Of a stretch of 64,000 bases of DNA, positions 55,200 to 64,000 are shown one piece after another. Every line of letters starts with the position of its first letter. Positions within the stretch are counted from its first letter, which is position 1. The DNA lies in assembly GCA_019636475.1 (NCBI GenBank), contig JAHBXN010000004.1, forward strand, positions 372,001 to 436,000, in the 5' to 3' direction. The position numbers and the translations under genes were made by a program. The DNA is from Phycisphaerae bacterium. GTDB taxonomy: Bacteria; Planctomycetota; Phycisphaerae; UBA1845; UTPLA1. Below the pieces are notes generated by a model, which saw only the letters and a program-made list of their open reading frames with translations, ran no database searches and was not told where the DNA came from.

Positions 55200-55287
55200 G
55201 CGCTGATACAAACCTTTCGCAATCCAATCAGTATCGTCGGTCTGACTCAGCGTGCCAAGTTCGTCCCGGCGCGATAGAATCTCCGCC

Positions 55288-56637
55288 ATGTCACTGCCAA
55301 TGGTCGCCATCGTCGGTCGCCCCAACGTCGGGAAGAGTTCGCTTCTCAATCTGCTCGCCCGCGAGCGAATCAGCATCGTCGATCCGACCGCGGGCGTTAC
55401 GAGGGACCGTGTGGCCGCCATTATCGAGCACGAGGAGCGATACTTCGAACTCGTCGATACCGGCGGCTACGGCATCGAAGATCACGACAATCTGACCGAT
55501 CATGTGGAAGGGCAGATCCAGCTCGCAATCGCCGGCGCTTCGCTCGTGCTGTTTGTCGTCGATGTCATGGACGAAATCACGCCACTCGACAGCGAGGTGG
55601 CCCAGATGCTGCGTCACGTCAAACGACCGGTCCAGCTCGTCGTCAACAAGGTGGACGCGCCCCTGCACGAATCGCAGGCGGGCCGGTTCATCGCGCTGGG
55701 TTTCGGCGAACCGGTGTGTGTCTCGGCGCTGCATGGGCACAATCGGCGAGGGCTCCTTGATCGAATCCTGGAGAGACTTGGTGACCAGTCCGCGACCGAG
55801 CGGCCGAACCCGGTCATGCGCGTCGCGCTCGTCGGGCGGCGAAATGTCGGCAAAAGTTCATTCATCAATGCGCTGGCCGGAGTCGAGCGGGTCATTGTCA
55901 GCGAAGTGCCGGGAACCACGCGCGATTCGGTCGATGTCCGGTTTGAATTCGACGGCCAGGAGTTCATCGCAATTGACACCGCGGGAGTGAAGAAGAAGAG
56001 CAAGCACAAGACAGACATCGAGTTTTATGGATATACCCGCGCGACCGCATCAATCCGGCGGGCCGATGTCATTCTTTTCGTTGTCGATTCCACCGTCCCG
56101 ATCACGGATGTGGACAAGAAGTTGGCGGACATGATTGTGCAGGAATTCAAGCCCTGCGTGGTCGTTGTGAACAAGTGGGACCTCGCCAAAGGGCGCGCGT
56201 CGGCAGAGGATTACGCAGGCTACATCGAGAAGACCCTTCCACACATGGCCCATGCGCCGCTGGCGTTTACAACGGCGACCGAAGCCAGAAACACCAAAGC
56301 CGCGATCGAACTCGCTCGCAGCCTGTTCAAGCAGGCCTCCACGCGTGTGACCACCGGGCAACTCAATCGTGCAGTCGAGGAAGTGCTGATGGCGTCCCAG
56401 CCGCAGTCCGACAAGCATGGTGCGCAGCCGCGAATCTATTACGCCACCCAGGTATCTGTCTGTCCGCCGACCCTCGTGTTGTTCGTGAACAACCCCGCAC
56501 TCATGCGCGATCAGTATCGCCGGTTTGTCGAACGGCGAATCCGCGAAGCTTTACCCTTCGAGGAGATACCGGTACGATTGATCTGGAGAGCGAGGCAGTC
56601 CCACGAGACCGCCGGTCGCGGATCGCATCACGAGTGA
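55288..56637 (+). CDS. der: Ribosome-assembly GTPase Der
   Basis: A GTPase with two GTP-binding domains in tandem, needed for 50S subunit assembly. 449 residues. Domain 1: GRPNVGKSS, AGVTRDR, DTGGYG and NKVD. Domain 2: GRRNVGKSS, PGTTRDS, DTAGVKKKS and NKWD. A KH-like C-terminal domain follows, with YYATQVSVCPPTLVLFVNN. The ATG at 55288 lies 88 bases from the divergent pseudouridine synthase start. A longer frame to 55252 is less likely. Confidence 0.97.
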   Translation: MSLPMVAIVGRPNVGKSSLLNLLARERISIVDPTAGVTRDRVAAIIEHEERYFELVDTGGYGIEDHDNLTDHVEGQIQLAIAGASLVLFVVDVMDEITPLDSEVAQMLRHVKRPVQLVVNKVDAPLHESQAGRFIALGFGEPVCVSALHGHNRRGLLDRILERLGDQSATERPNPVMRVALVGRRNVGKSSFINALAGVERVIVSEVPGTTRDSVDVRFEFDGQEFIAIDTAGVKKKSKHKTDIEFYGYTRATASIRRADVILFVVDSTVPITDVDKKLADMIVQEFKPCVVVVNKWDLAKGRASAEDYAGYIEKTLPHMAHAPLAFTTATEARNTKAAIELARSLFKQASTRVTTGQLNRAVEEVLMASQPQSDKHGAQPRIYYATQVSVCPPTLVLFVNNPALMRDQYRRFVERRIREALPFEEIPVRLIWRARQSHETAGRGSHHE

Positions 56638-56691: not shown

Positions 56692-57279
56692 GTGGCAATT
56701 GAATTTCACTGCGAACATTGCAACCACCTGATCCGGGCGACGGAGTCGGAAGCGGGACGAATGGGCGTGTGCCCTCACTGCAAAGGCCGGAACTATGTCC
56801 CGCGAGCGGAGGCCGAACTGGGCGAGATTCCACTCGCCCCCCTGGACGAAACTGAGGAGTTGCGGCGGCAAAGGTCCGCGCAGGAGGACGCCGCACTGCA
56901 AATGAAGCTCCTAAAGGAACGCGCCCGGGATCGCGATATGGCCGGCAAGCCTGCCTTCAAGCGACCGGATGGATTGCCGACCGAGTCCGCCGCTTCAACC
57001 CCATCGGGAGGTCGAGCATCCACCAGCGACAGCGGCGTGTACTCAACCGGCTCATCCAAAAAGCACCTTGCCGGACTGATCGTGTCATATGTCGAATCAA
57101 TGTGTTCGGCAAACCTCGAAAAAGCCGAAAAACTCGCCAGCCAGCTGGGGGCCGAGCGAAGGTTGGCCGCAATCCTCATCGACGAGATGTTGACGGAAGA
57201 CCTCACCGGGTATGGAATGCCCGCCTTACCTCGTCCGGTGCTGCTCGGATTTCTCAAGCAGCTGCGCGGTCGACTGTAA
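56692..57279 (+). CDS. Zinc-ribbon protein of unknown function
   Basis: 195 residues. The N-terminus is a four-cysteine zinc ribbon (Cys7-x2-Cys10, 16 residues, Cys27-x2-Cys30) with AGRMGVCPHCKG between. A charged helix (DETEELRRQRSAQEDAALQMKL), a disordered Ser/Thr-rich linker (about 95-120) and a helical C-terminal domain (about 124-195) follow. I do not recognise the C-terminal domain. The GTG start at 56692 has GGAG seven bases upstream. It follows der by 54 bases and precedes the kinase gene. The kinase at 57547 has a ribbon with the same spacing, which suggests they work together. Confidence 0.75.
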   Translation: MAIEFHCEHCNHLIRATESEAGRMGVCPHCKGRNYVPRAEAELGEIPLAPLDETEELRRQRSAQEDAALQMKLLKERARDRDMAGKPAFKRPDGLPTESAASTPSGGRASTSDSGVYSTGSSKKHLAGLIVSYVESMCSANLEKAEKLASQLGAERRLAAILIDEMLTEDLTGYGMPALPRPVLLGFLKQLRGRL

Positions 57280-57369
57280 GCCCCGGCCTTGCACAGGGAC
57301 GTGCCGACCCACCTGACACGTTCGGCTATCGGACGACGAGTGAATTACGGTTAATCCGGCACGCGTGAT

Positions 57370-57397
57370 CCGGAATTCGCGATTGACGCGATTCCGG
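57370..57397. repeat. Inverted repeat upstream of the kinase gene
   Basis: CCGGAATTCGCG (57370-57381) pairs with CGCGATTCCGG (57387-57397) with one bulged base around ATTGA. It lies 150 bases before the kinase start. No T-run follows; it may be a regulatory RNA fold or an operator. Confidence 0.4.
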
Positions 57398-57546
57398 CAC
57401 GTCCGATTCCACTTGAACGGTGCGAAGCGCCGGGCCCGAATGAGCGGGACTATGATCGAAAGGGGAGATCGTCCGAGGACGCTGAGCCCCGCGATCAAGG
57501 CCTGGCCTCTTTCGGCCGACGAACGATCCGGATCCGACAGCATACG

Positions 57547-58890
57547 ATGGACGCCGAGACCCAGACTGAACAACAGAAGCAGCCCGAGCGGCGAGTGGCG
57601 GTGATGTGTCCGCATTGCCGGCGCGGATACAAGATCGCGCCGAAGCTCCTCGGCAAGCGCCTCGTCTGCAAGGATTGTCGCCGCGAATGGCGCGCGGAGC
57701 GGGCCACCATGGAGGACCTTCGCGCTGCGCCGAACGCGCGCTCGGGTTCGGATCAACTCTCCGATATCGATCGATCCCCGTTCATCACCGATACCCGGCC
57801 GCACCGCGGCAGCTCTGATCTGCCGCCCACCGCCGGCGGCACAGTCGCAATCGACATGAGTTGGGCCGGCAAACGAATCGGTCGGTATCGGGCGCGTTCG
57901 CTGCTCGGCTACGGTGGAATGGGGGTCGTCTGGCGCGCCCACGATGACACGCTCCGGAGGGACGTGGCCCTGAAAATACTCTCCCGGCAGCGCGACGAGG
58001 CAAAGGGCGGCGGATTGAATCTGGACCTCTTCATGCAAGAGGCCCGCGCCGTCGCCAAGTTGCAGCATCCGTCGGTGGTGTCGATCTATGAGGTCTCAGA
58101 GCACGACGGGTATGTATTTCTCTCGCTCGAGTTGATGGAAGGCGGCACCCTCAAGGAGTTCGTCGACCGCGAGGGAATCATCGAACCCCGAAAGTTGTTC
58201 GGCTGGCTGGTCGGACCGGCCAAAGCGCTGGCGCTGGCCCATCGTCGCGGCGTGATACACCGCGACATCAAGCCCGGCAATCTCATGTTCGACGATCACG
58301 GTAATCTGAAGCTGATGGACTTCGGATTGGCGGACGTCGTAAACGAAGCGGTCAGCGAGCGACTTCGCGGCAAGGCGGTCGGCTCACTGGGATGGGTGGC
58401 ACCGGAAACGGCCAAGGGGCAAGCGACCACCGCCCAAAGTGATATCTATAGTTTCGGCCTGGTCATGCTTTTCGCGATGACCGGTCGGCCGCTGATCCAC
58501 GGCAAGTCGAAGAGCGAAGTCATCTCGCTGCATCAGAATCCGCCCGACCCGAAGCTCGAGGAAATCAAGGGGCTCACTGCGCGCGGACGCCAACTGTTGC
58601 GCAAGTGCCTGGCAATGGATCCGGCGCAGCGATTTCAGAACGCGGACGAGCTTGCGGCGGCGCTGCAGGCCTGCGCCGTTGAAGACCCGTTGCATCGGGT
58701 TAAGGCCGCGAAGAAAGGTGTGTCGATCGCCGTTCTGGCCGCCATCATCGGCGGTTTCATCGGTGTCGGCCTGACGATGTACTATCTGCTCGACCTGCTC
58801 AATCAGGAGCAGCAGTTCCGCACGCCGGGCGTGGGGCCTGCGGTTCGCCAGGTCCTGCCGGCCACACCAGCTCCCTCGAAGCCGGCTTGA
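57547..58890 (+). CDS. Transmembrane Ser/Thr protein kinase with N-terminal zinc ribbon
   Basis: A Hanks-type kinase of 447 residues. The N-terminus is a zinc ribbon (Cys21-x2-Cys24, 16 residues, Cys41-x2-Cys44). The kinase domain spans about 113-378, with the Gly-rich loop GYGGMGVVWRA, Lys143 in VALK, the catalytic HRDIKPGN with Asp240, and DFG with Asp258. All catalytic residues are intact. A transmembrane helix (about 393-418) follows, with only a short outside tail, so it has no large sensor domain. The likely input is therefore cytoplasmic, perhaps through the zinc ribbon or neighbouring proteins. The start ATG at 57547 lacks a strong ribosome site. Confidence 0.88.
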   Translation: MDAETQTEQQKQPERRVAVMCPHCRRGYKIAPKLLGKRLVCKDCRREWRAERATMEDLRAAPNARSGSDQLSDIDRSPFITDTRPHRGSSDLPPTAGGTVAIDMSWAGKRIGRYRARSLLGYGGMGVVWRAHDDTLRRDVALKILSRQRDEAKGGGLNLDLFMQEARAVAKLQHPSVVSIYEVSEHDGYVFLSLELMEGGTLKEFVDREGIIEPRKLFGWLVGPAKALALAHRRGVIHRDIKPGNLMFDDHGNLKLMDFGLADVVNEAVSERLRGKAVGSLGWVAPETAKGQATTAQSDIYSFGLVMLFAMTGRPLIHGKSKSEVISLHQNPPDPKLEEIKGLTARGRQLLRKCLAMDPAQRFQNADELAAALQACAVEDPLHRVKAAKKGVSIAVLAAIIGGFIGVGLTMYYLLDLLNQEQQFRTPGVGPAVRQVLPATPAPSKPA

Positions 58891-59357
58891 AAATCCACCG
58901 AAGAGCGGTCCGATTTCAAAAAATCCCCCGATTGCGGTGAACCGGCCGTCGGCCGGGACGCTCGGACCGGCCGGTCGTCAAGGCTTGTCAAAACGGATCA
59001 AATCTTGTCGAAGCCTGAGCATTCCTCCCTGCCGGGGTCAAAACAGCCGCCGTCACACCCCGAACAACTTGTCTCGAACGCGCAAATCTTGCCGGATTCG
59101 CGAGTATTGGCGGGCGCTGCATTCGTCCGATAAATGCTTAAATGGCCGTTGTTTGCTTCGGGATCGACCTGTTCTCGTTTTGCGCTCGCCTTTATCGGGC
59201 CAAACGGCCGTTGTGATAAGTGATTCTGGCGCGAGGTCCGGCCCCGGCGTAGCTCCGCCGAGCGGATGCGCAAACTGGTCGTTGGCAGGGACGTTCGCTC
59301 CACGGTCGAGCACGGATTGTTCGACCCGCGGTTCATCATGGATGAGGAATTCGGCCC
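58891..59357. other. Intergenic region between kinase and FHA genes
   Basis: No gene is supported. A GC-rich inverted repeat, ACCGGCCG (58941-58948) with CGGCCGGT (58968-58975), lies 50 bases after the kinase stop and could help end transcription, although there is no T-run. Confidence 0.5.
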
Positions 59358-62027
59358 GTGAGCACAACTCAGGAATTCACATCGGCGCTTTGCAGGGGAC
59401 TCCGTCTGGTTGCTTCAGGTGGAGGCGGGCCTCGACAGGCCTGCGAATTGAATCATGCCGTCTCGATTCTTGGATCGGGCGATTGGTGCGATGTCATACT
59501 CGAGGCACCGGATGTCGCCGATGCGCATGCGGCGATCGTCAAATACGCCGGCTCGGGCTACCTCTGTGATCTCGGAGCCCGTGGCGGCGCGATGCTTAAT
59601 GGAAGATTGGTGCGATGGGCAAGGCTGACCTCGGGCGACAAGGTCCAGGTCGGCCCCTTTGAGTTTCACGTCGAGATCGACGAAGAGGTCGCTCGCTCCG
59701 GAATGACGCAGCCGATCTTCGCACTGCGCGGAGACGATGAAATTGGACTTGTAACCAGTATCGATCCCGTGCTGCTGATCGGGAGCGACGGCGGTAGTGA
59801 TATTGTATTGAAGGATCCCGGCGTCATGCCGCGGCATTGCCTGATCGTCTGGAGCGATCATGGTCCGCTGGCACGCGATCTTACCGGCGATCGCCTTTCG
59901 TTCGTTAACGGCAGGCCGATTGCAACCGCGCTGCTGGCCGACGGCTGCACGGTTGGCGCTGGATCGTACGAGTTCGTTTTCGAAATTGAGAGCGAGCCGA
60001 CTTTGGAGCAGGCTGCCGGCGGACGATTCTCGGATGGCCTGGAGGCGGAACCCGCTCCGAAGCCGGGCACCCCCGGGTTGATCGCGGCGCGCTTTGCTGC
60101 CCGCGACGGCGACATGCCGGCGGAATCGACGGCACAGCCCGGCGAGAGTGACAGGGATTTCGAAAGTCTTCCGGGGCAGACGCATTCGCGAGAGACCGGA
60201 TTGGTCAAGACGAATCGCCCCAATTATTTCAATCGGATCGTTGAGACGGCCGGCGCCGATCTGGCCGAGATGGCCGAAATGGAGGCTCGCGCCGAGTGTG
60301 GGCCGGGTCGCGACGAATCTGCGGACGAGCAGGCTGCGAACGACGTACACGAGGTCGCCGGCGAAGTGCCGGAATCGACGACCGGCATGACGCCGGAAGC
60401 GATTCTTCGCAAGGCCGAACAACTCCAGCGAAAAACCGCCGAAATGCGTCGCCGTGTCGCGGACGCACAGAAAGCGCTCGACGCACGGGCGGAGAAGCAT
60501 CGCGAGGAAATCCTTCGCGAGCGCCATCGACTCCGCGAGAAGCGAGCCTTGCTTCAGATGCAGGCCAAGGCGCTCGTCGAAGCGGCCAGGTCCGGGAAGA
60601 AATCGGAGGATGATGCGCCCGGCAAGTCCGTCGCGTTGGATGGCCGGAGTGATTCAGGAAACGTGCTGGAAGTCCACGACGAGCCGGCGCAGCGGGCGTT
60701 CGTCGAATATGTGGCCAACGAGTCAAGCGTCCGGCGGCTGTTGAGCGGAGCTGCCGACCTTGAAGAACTGTCCGACTTCAATGCAAAGGAAACGGATCGA
60801 ATCTTGAACGACCCGCGCTCCTACGCGGAAGAGGAATCGCTCAAAACGCTGGAGGATCGGGTTGCCGAGTTGATTCGTGTTGCCCAGTCCGAACGCAAGG
60901 AAATTGAACGCGGCGAAGCGCTGGTCGAGACGCTCCGATTTGAAACGGAACGCCAGCGACGCACACTGACCCGGCGACAGGAAAAACTCCAATCTCGCGA
61001 AAAGTCGCTCGAAGATCGATTCCGCTCGCTCACCAAGGCTCGAGACGCCATCCGCAAGGAGCGCGCGCCGCTTCTCGCGAGGTTGAAAGCACTGGATGCC
61101 GACGAGGCCGTCATTCGCGACCGGCTCTCGGAAAGCGAGCGCCTGCATCAGGACCTCGTTCGGGAGGCCGAGGCGATCGACGAATTGCAGGAAGGCCTGG
61201 AGACCCGGGAGCGAGCCTTGCTGCACAAGCTGGAATTGGAACGCCAGCGATTGCTCGCCCGGCAGACCCAACTCAAGCGAAAAGCCGCCCAGCTCGCCAA
61301 GGCTGCTCGAGAAAAACGGCTCGCCATCGAAAAGGAAATGGTCCGTCAGCAGGCCGATCTGGAGGCTCGCGAGGCCGAATTGCGTGCCCAACGCATGGCG
61401 ATCGAGGAATCGGCGCGAGGCGAATTGGAAAAAACCGCCGGAAACATTGAGCAAGTACTTAGTGTGAGGCTGTCCGAAATAGAGGCCGAACTGGAGTCGC
61501 GGCGGATGGATCTCGACACCAAGGTGCAGGAACTGGCTGGCCTGAATCATGCGCATCTGAAGGCGGCCCGCGAGGCCAACGATCCGATCGATGCGTCCCT
61601 GCGGAGAATCGCTTCGGAATTCACGGGAATTTACCAGGCATCGGAAGAGGATGCCGAGGTCGATAGCCGTCATGGCTCGCTCGACACCCTGGCCGCGGAG
61701 ATTGACGCCTTCAGCAGGCGGAATGCGAAGACGACATCAATCGAATCGGACAACGATGAAGCGTCATCGAGCGACATGTCGAACGGCTGTGCTCAGTCGG
61801 ATTCCAATCTCAGGGTGCGGCCGTCGAGCGGACCGATTCTGAAGCTCGCGGACGAGGTCGGCGACGACGAACCGGCGGTTGCGCCGATCGACAATGAAGC
61901 GGAGTCGGCCGGTTGTTCGACGGTGGATGTCCTCGATGAGGCGATGTCGAATGACACGCCCGATGCGGAATCGAAGCGACAGACGACCAACAACGATAAG
62001 GATGCCGAAACGCCATCAAGGGACTGA
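59358..62027 (+). CDS. Tandem FHA-domain protein with a long coiled coil
   Basis: 889 residues. Two FHA-like domains lie in tandem at about 14-110 (ILGSGDWCDVILEA, HAAIVKY, LNGRLV) and 118-215 (LLIGSDGGSDIVLKD, MPRHCLIV, FVNGRPI). FHA domains bind phosphothreonine, so this is the likely reader of the kinase gene next door. A disordered linker (about 220-340) is followed by a long, charged coiled coil (about 344-740), dense in Arg, Glu and Ala. The tail is acidic and low-complexity. GTG start at 59358, with GAGGA about ten bases before. I recognise no named orthologue; a scaffold or filament role is inference. Confidence 0.82.
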   Translation: MSTTQEFTSALCRGLRLVASGGGGPRQACELNHAVSILGSGDWCDVILEAPDVADAHAAIVKYAGSGYLCDLGARGGAMLNGRLVRWARLTSGDKVQVGPFEFHVEIDEEVARSGMTQPIFALRGDDEIGLVTSIDPVLLIGSDGGSDIVLKDPGVMPRHCLIVWSDHGPLARDLTGDRLSFVNGRPIATALLADGCTVGAGSYEFVFEIESEPTLEQAAGGRFSDGLEAEPAPKPGTPGLIAARFAARDGDMPAESTAQPGESDRDFESLPGQTHSRETGLVKTNRPNYFNRIVETAGADLAEMAEMEARAECGPGRDESADEQAANDVHEVAGEVPESTTGMTPEAILRKAEQLQRKTAEMRRRVADAQKALDARAEKHREEILRERHRLREKRALLQMQAKALVEAARSGKKSEDDAPGKSVALDGRSDSGNVLEVHDEPAQRAFVEYVANESSVRRLLSGAADLEELSDFNAKETDRILNDPRSYAEEESLKTLEDRVAELIRVAQSERKEIERGEALVETLRFETERQRRTLTRRQEKLQSREKSLEDRFRSLTKARDAIRKERAPLLARLKALDADEAVIRDRLSESERLHQDLVREAEAIDELQEGLETRERALLHKLELERQRLLARQTQLKRKAAQLAKAAREKRLAIEKEMVRQQADLEAREAELRAQRMAIEESARGELEKTAGNIEQVLSVRLSEIEAELESRRMDLDTKVQELAGLNHAHLKAAREANDPIDASLRRIASEFTGIYQASEEDAEVDSRHGSLDTLAAEIDAFSRRNAKTTSIESDNDEASSSDMSNGCAQSDSNLRVRPSSGPILKLADEVGDDEPAVAPIDNEAESAGCSTVDVLDEAMSNDTPDAESKRQTTNNDKDAETPSRD

Positions 62028-62163
62028 CGATCAGACGCGGGTCTGTTTGTCTTGAATAGAGCAGGCGAATCCCTGTTTTGCGTGAGCAGTGATTCGCGGC
62101 AACTCGGCGCGATCGATCAAGTTTCTCCGTCGATCGCGTCGGTCACGCACGGAGCTGTTTTTC

Positions 62164-64000
62164 ATGGAGCAGGAGACTCGCCGAAAAACCGCCGGCGGCG
62201 CAACGCTGCCGTCCGCGGAAGCGACACCTCGTCCACGTTTCACAATTCCATCCGGCGAGTCCGTCGCCGCCGACAGCGTCCCCCAGGATGCGGCTCATCT
62301 CGCGGCTTCCCGGCCGAAGTCGGCGGATCGCAGCGGTCTGGCCTTCGGCGCGGGAGAGTCGGAACCAATCTCGCCGACCTCGCAGACCGTTTCCGGTTCC
62401 GGCGACGAGATTATGGAAGACCTCTCACGATTGAACGATGCGTCGCGTATGGTCGCAGGAATTCGCCAGTGGGTGGATTCGCAATCGACCGAAGAAGCGG
62501 CGATCCTGGCAAACCTGACGCGAGGGTCCGGCTTTTCCGTGCTCAAGGATCTCATGGGGTCAGATGAAGACGAAATGGATTCGCGTTCCATGCCGATCGC
62601 GGGCGCGCGTTTCCGGCCGCCGGCTGTTTCTGCGCGACAGTCGGAGGCGGCGAAGTTGGATCAGAACCCCCAATTAGGCCATGACCCCGATGCGGTTACG
62701 ACGGTAGAATCTCCGGGGCGAGAGGGGGCCCGGGGGGAGGTGCCGCAGGAACAATCGGCCACGGATTCGGACGAAGGCGTACTTGATATGGAAAGATCCC
62801 TCGACAAGCCCAAATCGCACGACCGCGGACCGTCGACCGATGTTGCCGCAAACGAAGGAGATCAATTCCTTCTGGCGGCCGAGCAGCGGCAGGCCCAGGA
62901 AGAATTGCGGCGAATCCGTGAGCGCGGTCCATCAGCAGGCCTCGTCGGCGGGGCGACCGGAATTCGGGGCGGGGACGAGCGCTCCGCGATGATCCGTGAT
63001 CGGGTCGCTCTGGCGCAGCGAGCACTCGATGAGAGGGCGCAAAAACTAAGTGAAGAACTTGCGCAGGAACGTGAGCGGCTCAAGGCCTATCGCGATCGTC
63101 TTCAAGCCAAGGCGCAGGAACTCCTCGAATCGACCCGGACACAGAAGCAGAAACTCGTCGAACAACGGGAAGAAATCGACCGGGCCGCGGCTGATCTGGC
63201 GGCGGCTCGTGCTGAATTCGAGGCCGCGCAATCACTTCTGGAAACAGAAAAATCCGCATTGGAATCGGCGCGCGCGGAACTGAGCGAACAGGCAGAGCTC
63301 GAGGCACGCAAAGCGACCGCGGAGCGATTTCACGAATTGGAATCGGAAGCAGCCCGCCGGCAGAGCGAGTATGAATCACGGCTTGCTCAGTTCGAAGCGG
63401 ACCGGGCGGCGTTCGAGAGCGAGAAGACGCGCGCTCGAGAGAAGCTGTTCGAGGAAATCGAGTCTGCTCGATCGGCTCGTATGCGCGAGGTGGAACTGGA
63501 GGCGGCGAATCGCGAAGCGGAATCAGCCGCTGCGCGAAGTCGGCTCGAAGCGGAAATTCGGGCGCTTGAGAATGAACGATCGCTCGCCGGCGAGAAGCTG
63601 CGGGACGAGATCGAAACAGCCCGCACGGCTCGGATGCGCGAGCTGGAACATGAAGCCGCCCAGCGCGAGGCGGAGTTCGCGGCCTCGCGAAACCGGCTTG
63701 TTTCGGAAATACAGGAATTTGAGGCTGAAAAGCAGCGGATTCGCGAAGCTACGTTGACGGAGGTCGAGCGTCTGAAGGCGCAACGCCTTGAGGAAGCTGA
63801 ACTTGAGCTTCGTCGAACCCGGGCGGATGCCGAGGCGGCTCGCGCGAATCTGGAGGATGCTCGGCGTGAATTTGAGGATGAAAAGCAGCGAATTCTCGAT
63901 CAACTGACATCGCAATCGGACGAGGCAACCCGAAATCGTCTGCGCGAACTGGACGAAGAATCGGCCAAACGGCGGACCGAGTTTGACAAGCGCGAGGCCG
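62164..64000 (+). CDS. Long coiled-coil protein, runs off the window
   Basis: An open frame of at least 612 codons that continues past the right edge. It starts at ATG 62164 (GGAG about ten bases upstream). The first ~270 residues are disordered and rich in Ser, Pro and acidic residues; from about 275 onward it is an almost unbroken coiled coil of Glu, Arg, Ala and Gln with segments such as ALDERAQKLSEELAQERERL. It resembles the coiled coil of the FHA protein and follows it by 136 bases, so the two may interact or be related by duplication. Its C-terminus is unseen. Confidence 0.75.
   Translation, partial: MEQETRRKTAGGATLPSAEATPRPRFTIPSGESVAADSVPQDAAHLAASRPKSADRSGLAFGAGESEPISPTSQTVSGSGDEIMEDLSRLNDASRMVAGIRQWVDSQSTEEAAILANLTRGSGFSVLKDLMGSDEDEMDSRSMPIAGARFRPPAVSARQSEAAKLDQNPQLGHDPDAVTTVESPGREGARGEVPQEQSATDSDEGVLDMERSLDKPKSHDRGPSTDVAANEGDQFLLAAEQRQAQEELRRIRERGPSAGLVGGATGIRGGDERSAMIRDRVALAQRALDERAQKLSEELAQERERLKAYRDRLQAKAQELLESTRTQKQKLVEQREEIDRAAADLAAARAEFEAAQSLLETEKSALESARAELSEQAELEARKATAERFHELESEAARRQSEYESRLAQFEADRAAFESEKTRAREKLFEEIESARSARMREVELEAANREAESAAARSRLEAEIRALENERSLAGEKLRDEIETARTARMRELEHEAAQREAEFAASRNRLVSEIQEFEAEKQRIREATLTEVERLKAQRLEEAELELRRTRADAEAARANLEDARREFEDEKQRILDQLTSQSDEATRNRLRELDEESAKRRTEFDKREA

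Follow-up and report, generated by a model that had tools for sequence, protein, structure and literature searches.

Two conserved gene clusters that meet in one Phycisphaerae genome, including a tandem-FHA protein and a giant coiled-coil membrane protein as a candidate envelope scaffold

RESULTS

Gene content of the window

The stretch of DNA analyzed here (the window) covers 64,000 nucleotides, positions 372001 to 436000 of contig C4, of a 4.4-Mb Phycisphaerae genome that is 95% complete. It was compared with 60 relatives, namely, 16 members of the same family (f1) and 44 genomes from seven other families of the order. Toward its end lie four successive plus-strand open reading frames (ORFs), at 56692 to 57279, 57547 to 58890, 59358 to 62027, and from 62089 or 62164 onward, preceded on the same strand by the gene for the double GTPase Der/EngA (55252 to 56637; two MMR_HSR1 domains and a KH_dom-like domain in Pfam), which gene order in relatives places at the head of a cluster with the next two genes. 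The first of the four, recognized by its ORF, Cys motif, and gene order, encodes a 195-residue zinc-ribbon protein with a CX2C-X16-CX2C motif at 56710 to 56781 and a conserved C-terminal region of about 70 residues; no Pfam family scored over the cutoff. The second, assigned to the same cluster by gene order, encodes a 447-residue Ser/Thr kinase (Pkinase, E = 4.9e-49) with an N-terminal zinc ribbon that is likewise CX2C-X16-CX2C (57607 to 57678), the motifs of an active kinase (VALKIL with the catalytic Lys, HRDIKPGN, MDFG, and APET), and one transmembrane (TM) helix at residues 391 to 409 (58717 to 58773), after which a tail of only 38 residues follows.

The third gene encodes an 889-residue protein in which an FHA fold is matched in two copies, FHA1 (59439 to 59672) and FHA2 (59772 to 59987), the best Pfam family being PF16697 (Yop-YscD_cpl; E = 2.6e-19), with PF00498 at 6.9e-19. 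A composition scan marks about 390 of its residues as coiled-coil-like, the main coiled coil spanning residues 458 to 727 (60729 to 61538) with periodicity in the heptad range. The fourth gene, referred to below as the giant, enters the window with its N-terminal part only (62164 to 64000) and was completed from the contig: it has 2,573 codons from the ATG at 62164, to which a GTG at 62089 would add 25, and ends at C4:441885, that is, at window position 69885. The kinase gene is separated from the FHA gene by 467 bp and the FHA gene from the giant by 61 bp, and a promoter and terminator scan returned signals no commoner than chance. A first-pass annotation had listed four successive plus-strand genes with these domains, two ribbons of identical spacing, a membrane kinase with almost no extracellular part, and a double FHA protein with a coiled coil of about 400 residues, all of which the sequence analysis confirmed. 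Its description of the last gene as another long coiled-coil protein was correct for the coiled coil, but the gene is cut by the end of the window and its product has, beyond the coiled coil, a periplasmic domain between two TM helices.

The window joins two independent clusters

Within f1, der is directly followed by the zinc-ribbon gene, and in most relatives the kinase gene comes next; the kinase orthologues, which are 50 to 64% identical, adjoin the zinc-ribbon gene and not the FHA gene. No gene for the zinc-ribbon protein, the kinase, or Der was found at the FHA loci of the f1 relatives, and the first two and last two window genes are never neighbors in the 16 same-family genomes. In all 15 relatives in which both sets were located, they are found on different contigs or at least 240 kb apart, the distances having been measured in the single-contig genomes G002, G013, and G014. 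As the two sets are apart in every informative relative, the four-gene "module" is therefore two clusters touching here: the window contains the point at which der-zinc ribbon-kinase and FHA-giant, each conserved independently of the other, abut in this genome only. Misassembly at the kinase-FHA junction may be the origin of this unique adjacency. The proposal of the first-pass annotation that all four genes form one signaling system thus fails on conservation of gene order, with kinase-FHA adjacency in none of the 15 informative relatives; of the regulated scaffold that it envisaged, the FHA protein and its coiled-coil partner stand (12 adjacent and 3 fused cases), whereas the kinase and zinc-ribbon protein belong elsewhere.

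The matching zinc ribbons were considered as a sign of partnership and rejected, since a DNA-level scan of the whole genome gave 43 hits each for the CX2C-X16-CX2C pattern and its reversed control, and the N terminus of a paralogous kinase (C12:47231) carries such a ribbon as well. It is possible that the zinc-ribbon protein encoded after der is an unrecognized partner of Der. Pairing of der with a gene for a zinc-ribbon protein of about 180 to 200 residues, with the conserved C-terminal domain and 27 to 50% identity, is also seen in families f2, f3, f5, and f8.

The FHA gene and the giant are conserved as a unit

Searches for the membrane part of the giant detected it throughout f1, in 16 of 16 relatives (with weak matches in G003, G009, and G011), and scarcely beyond that family; a phylum-wide search of 392 genomes recovered it in its own genome alone, together with one likely chance match to a coiled coil. 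The tandem-FHA gene is immediately upstream of the giant in 12 f1 genomes, with a gap of 12 to 175 bp where measured, and the two are linked in every f1 member that has both on one contig. The G005 assembly splits the giant, with its start on the same contig as the FHA gene and its end on another. Three relatives (G004, G009, and G011) encode the FHA domains and the membrane part in a single frame of 2,085 to 2,261 codons, and G003 has a shorter version of 802 residues without FHA. These one-gene fusions of FHA, coiled coil, and membrane part argue strongly for a joint function of the FHA protein and the giant.

In the window genome, a gene for a GT4 glycosyltransferase follows the giant after 79 bp and is itself followed by mraZ. 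GT4 and MraZ are likewise encoded downstream of the giant in the f1 relatives (in G003 and G010 as detected by tblastn), with exceptions in spacing: about 5.6 kb separate the giant from the GT4 gene in G010, and in G004 and G016 the region lies partly past the contig end. The genes next to the unit in G003, G009, and G011 are, in order, mraZ, rsmH, a LysM protein gene, and ftsI. A search for a GT4 equivalog gave none above the cutoff, and no Wzx, Wzy, or ABC exporter genes were seen at the locus of the giant. A GT4 gene immediately or almost immediately precedes mraZ in families f7 and f8 as well, there without a giant gene, so the association of GT4 with mraZ seems to predate insertion of the FHA-giant pair. 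A 769-residue protein encoded upstream of the GT4 gene in f8 was considered as a co-polymerase and rejected by a composition and hydropathy scan.

Degenerate phosphothreonine sites in the FHA domains

With the phosphothreonine-binding FHA domain of FhaA (PDB 3po8) as the reference, the Arg, Ser, and Asn positions of the ligand site are occupied by Ser, Ala, and Gly in FHA1 and by Ser, Met, and Arg in FHA2, the GR motif having become GS in both. None of 14 aligned FHA domains from seven f1 proteins, the three fused ones included, has the full set, the very residues on which the signaling proposal of the first-pass annotation depended, and the f1 FHA domains therefore appear, from these substitutions, incapable of reading phosphate. 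The soluble FHA-coiled-coil proteins of the wider order, which are 743 to 1,605 residues long, have no TM helix near the end, and are encoded at unrelated loci, provide an outgroup in families f2, f4, f6, and f8, where FHA2 keeps the Arg and Ser and, in some cases, the Asn. Judged by these alignments, loss of the phosphothreonine site appears to have accompanied the joining of the FHA unit to the membrane scaffold. Signaling from kinase to FHA is unlikely because no examined FHA domain of the family has the full Arg/Ser/Asn set, although the scaffold may still be phosphorylated by the window kinase or by another kinase.

Architecture and origin of the giant

By hydropathy, the giant is predicted to comprise a cytoplasmic coiled coil (residues ~267 to 1939), TM1 (~1992 to 2010), a periplasmic region of ~530 residues, and TM2 (~2542 to 2560); the flanks of the TM helices on the cytoplasmic side are Arg-rich, and both helices also appear in the AlphaFold2 (AF2) model. 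The coiled coil consists of 21% Glu, 17% Arg, 15% Ala, and 10% Leu, and its LIVMFYW residues recur with a period of 3.51 over 1,673 residues (power 24, against noise of about 1). At the standard helix rise of 0.1485 nm per residue, the ~1,670 residues would measure about 250 nm if fully extended.

A motif of ~52 residues (RVAxAQxALDERA...LLxAA) marks the start of the coiled coil in both the FHA proteins (60438 to 60593 in the window, by profile search) and the split giants (62989 to 63141; 53 bits and E = 1e-16 with a profile derived from the FHA proteins). One strong copy each is present in 13 FHA proteins and 12 split giants, and the FHA-derived profile matches the 12 giants with E values of 1e-11 to 1e-19, as well as the fused protein of G004. 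The sharing of this motif suggests that the pair arose from a single fused gene by duplication and partition. In a Der tree, the fused, dcw-linked genomes G009 and G011 are sister to the other f1 members, a position that is consistent with a fused ancestor, but the fused G004 falls within the split clade with weak support.

The membrane part resembles polysaccharide co-polymerases

The AF2 model of the membrane part (pLDDT 82) has the order TM-beta-helices-beta-beta-helix-long helices-beta-TM, and TM1 with the alpha/beta domain modeled alone reached a pLDDT of 86. The structural case was made via re-alignment of Foldseek candidates and by hhalign, the first Foldseek list for the membrane part having been dominated by coiled coils and Foldseek with the small alpha/beta domain having returned nothing significant. 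Upon re-alignment, Wzc provided the only listed matches spanning both TM helices (Z = 10.5 to 12.2), covering model residues 42 to 621 with a large rmsd owing to the long helices. For the alpha/beta domain alone, the six best rows were all KpsE (Z = 7.6 to 7.8; 99 to 150 residues aligned), and WzzE reached a Z of 5.9 over 166 residues. These scores are moderate and within the range of common arrangements, and helical bundles score highly too; it is the convergence of two models on one family, more than the Z values alone, that favors likeness to co-polymerases. Profile-profile comparison by hhalign with canonical Wzz-family proteins of the same genomes gave probabilities of 92% (local) and 94% (global), against at most 0.5% for 30 column-shuffled profiles. 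Pfam and NCBIfam co-polymerase models had no match in the giant, PF02706 matched other genes of this genome and not the giant, and the membrane region, when searched by sequence against PDB and Pfam, gave chance coiled-coil matches only. Hence, we say that the modeled membrane end resembles a co-polymerase and do not call it a member of the family.

Shorter co-polymerase-like proteins of this layout, 773 to 1,335 residues long, are encoded in family f4 (a cytoplasmic coiled coil of roughly 200 to 750 residues, a TM helix, about 530 residues, and a TM helix), which makes the giant look like an enlarged version of a type already present. In two f4 genomes (G025 and G035), one such gene adjoins genes for an RluD-like protein and a multi-TM protein.

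DISCUSSION

We propose, with a probability only slightly better than even (about 0.55), that the FHA protein and the giant are the two parts of a membrane scaffold for the assembly of envelope glycan, with a very long cytoplasmic coiled coil and a phosphate-blind FHA head; the zinc-ribbon and kinase genes are outside it. The glycan function is one that we infer. In such a scaffold, the periplasmic part would oligomerize, and the membrane part would organize the assembly or export of an envelope glycan to whose precursor the GT4 enzyme might contribute. The coiled coils would bundle into a long cytoplasmic rod, on which the FHA protein would dock via the shared coiled-coil motif, and the tandem FHA domains, at the distal end of the rod, would serve as a docking head independent of phosphorylation, binding a cytoplasmic partner. 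The assembly site could thereby be kept tied to that partner, perhaps the division or cell wall machinery that is encoded next door in the basal relatives.

The closest analogies are with Wzz (PCP-1), Wzc/GumC (PCP-2), and KpsE (PCP-3), which have two TM helices around a periplasmic alpha/beta domain with long helices, a layout also predicted for the giant, whose gene adjoins one for a glycosyltransferase. The giant differs from them in its cytoplasmic N-terminal coiled coil of more than 1,600 residues and its FHA partner or fused FHA head, and it has neither a tyrosine kinase domain nor a PF02706 match, with no exporter or polymerase gene seen at its locus. The inner-ring component SctD/YscD of type III secretion systems offers another parallel, since no Pfam family matches the tandem FHA region better than that of its cytoplasmic domain; in that protein, the FHA fold serves assembly and not phospho-reading, whereas here the tandem domains sit on a coiled coil and secretion system genes are absent.

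The mycobacterial FhaA/FhaB-PknA/PknB systems of cell wall signaling also combine an FHA protein with a Ser/Thr kinase, as does the window, and envelope or division genes lie nearby in the relatives; mycobacterial FHA proteins, however, are not known to have a long coiled coil, and here the kinase gene does not accompany the FHA gene in relatives and the phosphothreonine site is lost. A model of a kinase-regulated filament scaffold, with the FHA domains reading threonines that the membrane kinase has phosphorylated, draws on the adjacency and shared direction of the genes in the window genome, on kinase motifs that look active, and on the near-canonical FHA2 of the soluble proteins of the order. 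Against these stand the failure of that adjacency to recur in any informative relative, the incomplete ligand site of every family FHA domain examined, and the wide kinase-FHA gap beside the narrow FHA-giant one. We have rejected this module on gene order and FHA residues, and we now regard it as highly improbable.

The mraZ/dcw neighborhood raises the possibility that the giant is linked to the wall or division machinery, as does the failure to detect FtsZ in any of 21 genomes (controls positive in 13 of 14), in line with the reported loss of ftsZ, ftsA, and ftsB in Phycisphaerae (PMC12283558). The giant could accordingly be viewed as a cytoskeleton-like or division filament, a partial substitute for division or shape functions in bacteria lacking FtsZ, with the co-polymerase-like part a mere anchor and the FHA protein capping or cross-linking it. 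Its very long heptad coiled coil, the mraZ gene downstream with rsmH-LysM-ftsI beyond it in three relatives, and the precedent of bacterial coiled-coil proteins with intermediate-filament-like roles (PMC2680258) speak for such a filament. Yet the giant has no known polymerizing domain, is confined to one family at the sensitivity used, and keeps its GT4 neighbor more steadily than the dcw genes. As the sister-family genomes tested, which have no giant, likewise have no detectable FtsZ, it is not a general replacement for FtsZ. Crescentin and FilP share the long heptad coiled coil, but the giant is membrane anchored, several times longer, and equipped with a large folded periplasmic domain and an FHA partner; on balance, we think a filament unlikely. 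A tether without any glycan role, in which the FHA protein and the giant span the envelope and link the nucleoid or an internal membrane to the cell wall, would suit the topology of a long cytoplasmic rod, TM helix, and large periplasmic helical region, as well as the LysM protein encoded downstream of mraZ in the basal relatives. It leaves the constant GT4 partner and the co-polymerase-like alpha/beta domain without explanation, and we consider it quite unlikely.

Returning to the envelope-glycan scaffold, a bolder form of the idea, which we offer as speculation with the odds clearly against it, is an undescribed envelope machine in which a co-polymerase-like ring, a quarter-micrometer cable, and a phosphate-blind head position glycan or wall synthesis without FtsZ. 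No description of FHA combined with Wzz or another co-polymerase and a coiled coil, or of planctomycete giant coiled-coil proteins, was found in the open-access literature searched. The giant is a concrete, testable candidate for the spatial organization of envelope or wall synthesis in FtsZ-less planctomycetes. More generally, the FHA-giant family illustrates how phospho-binding FHA domains may shed their ligand residues once they become part of a structural scaffold, and the window shows how adjacency in a single genome can suggest a false signaling module.

Beyond the family, soluble tandem-FHA proteins with coiled coils of 300 to 1,200 residues are common across the order, and the named genomes matched by the FHA profile are metagenome-assembled genomes of uncultured planctomycetes, with four of the eight labeled Phycisphaerae or Phycisphaerales. 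In f8, some soluble tandem-FHA genes precede a gene for a conserved-looking protein of about 870 to 910 residues. Within f1, a conserved cluster encoding trigger factor, two ClpP proteins, and a small lipoprotein-like protein lies upstream of the FHA gene in most genomes.
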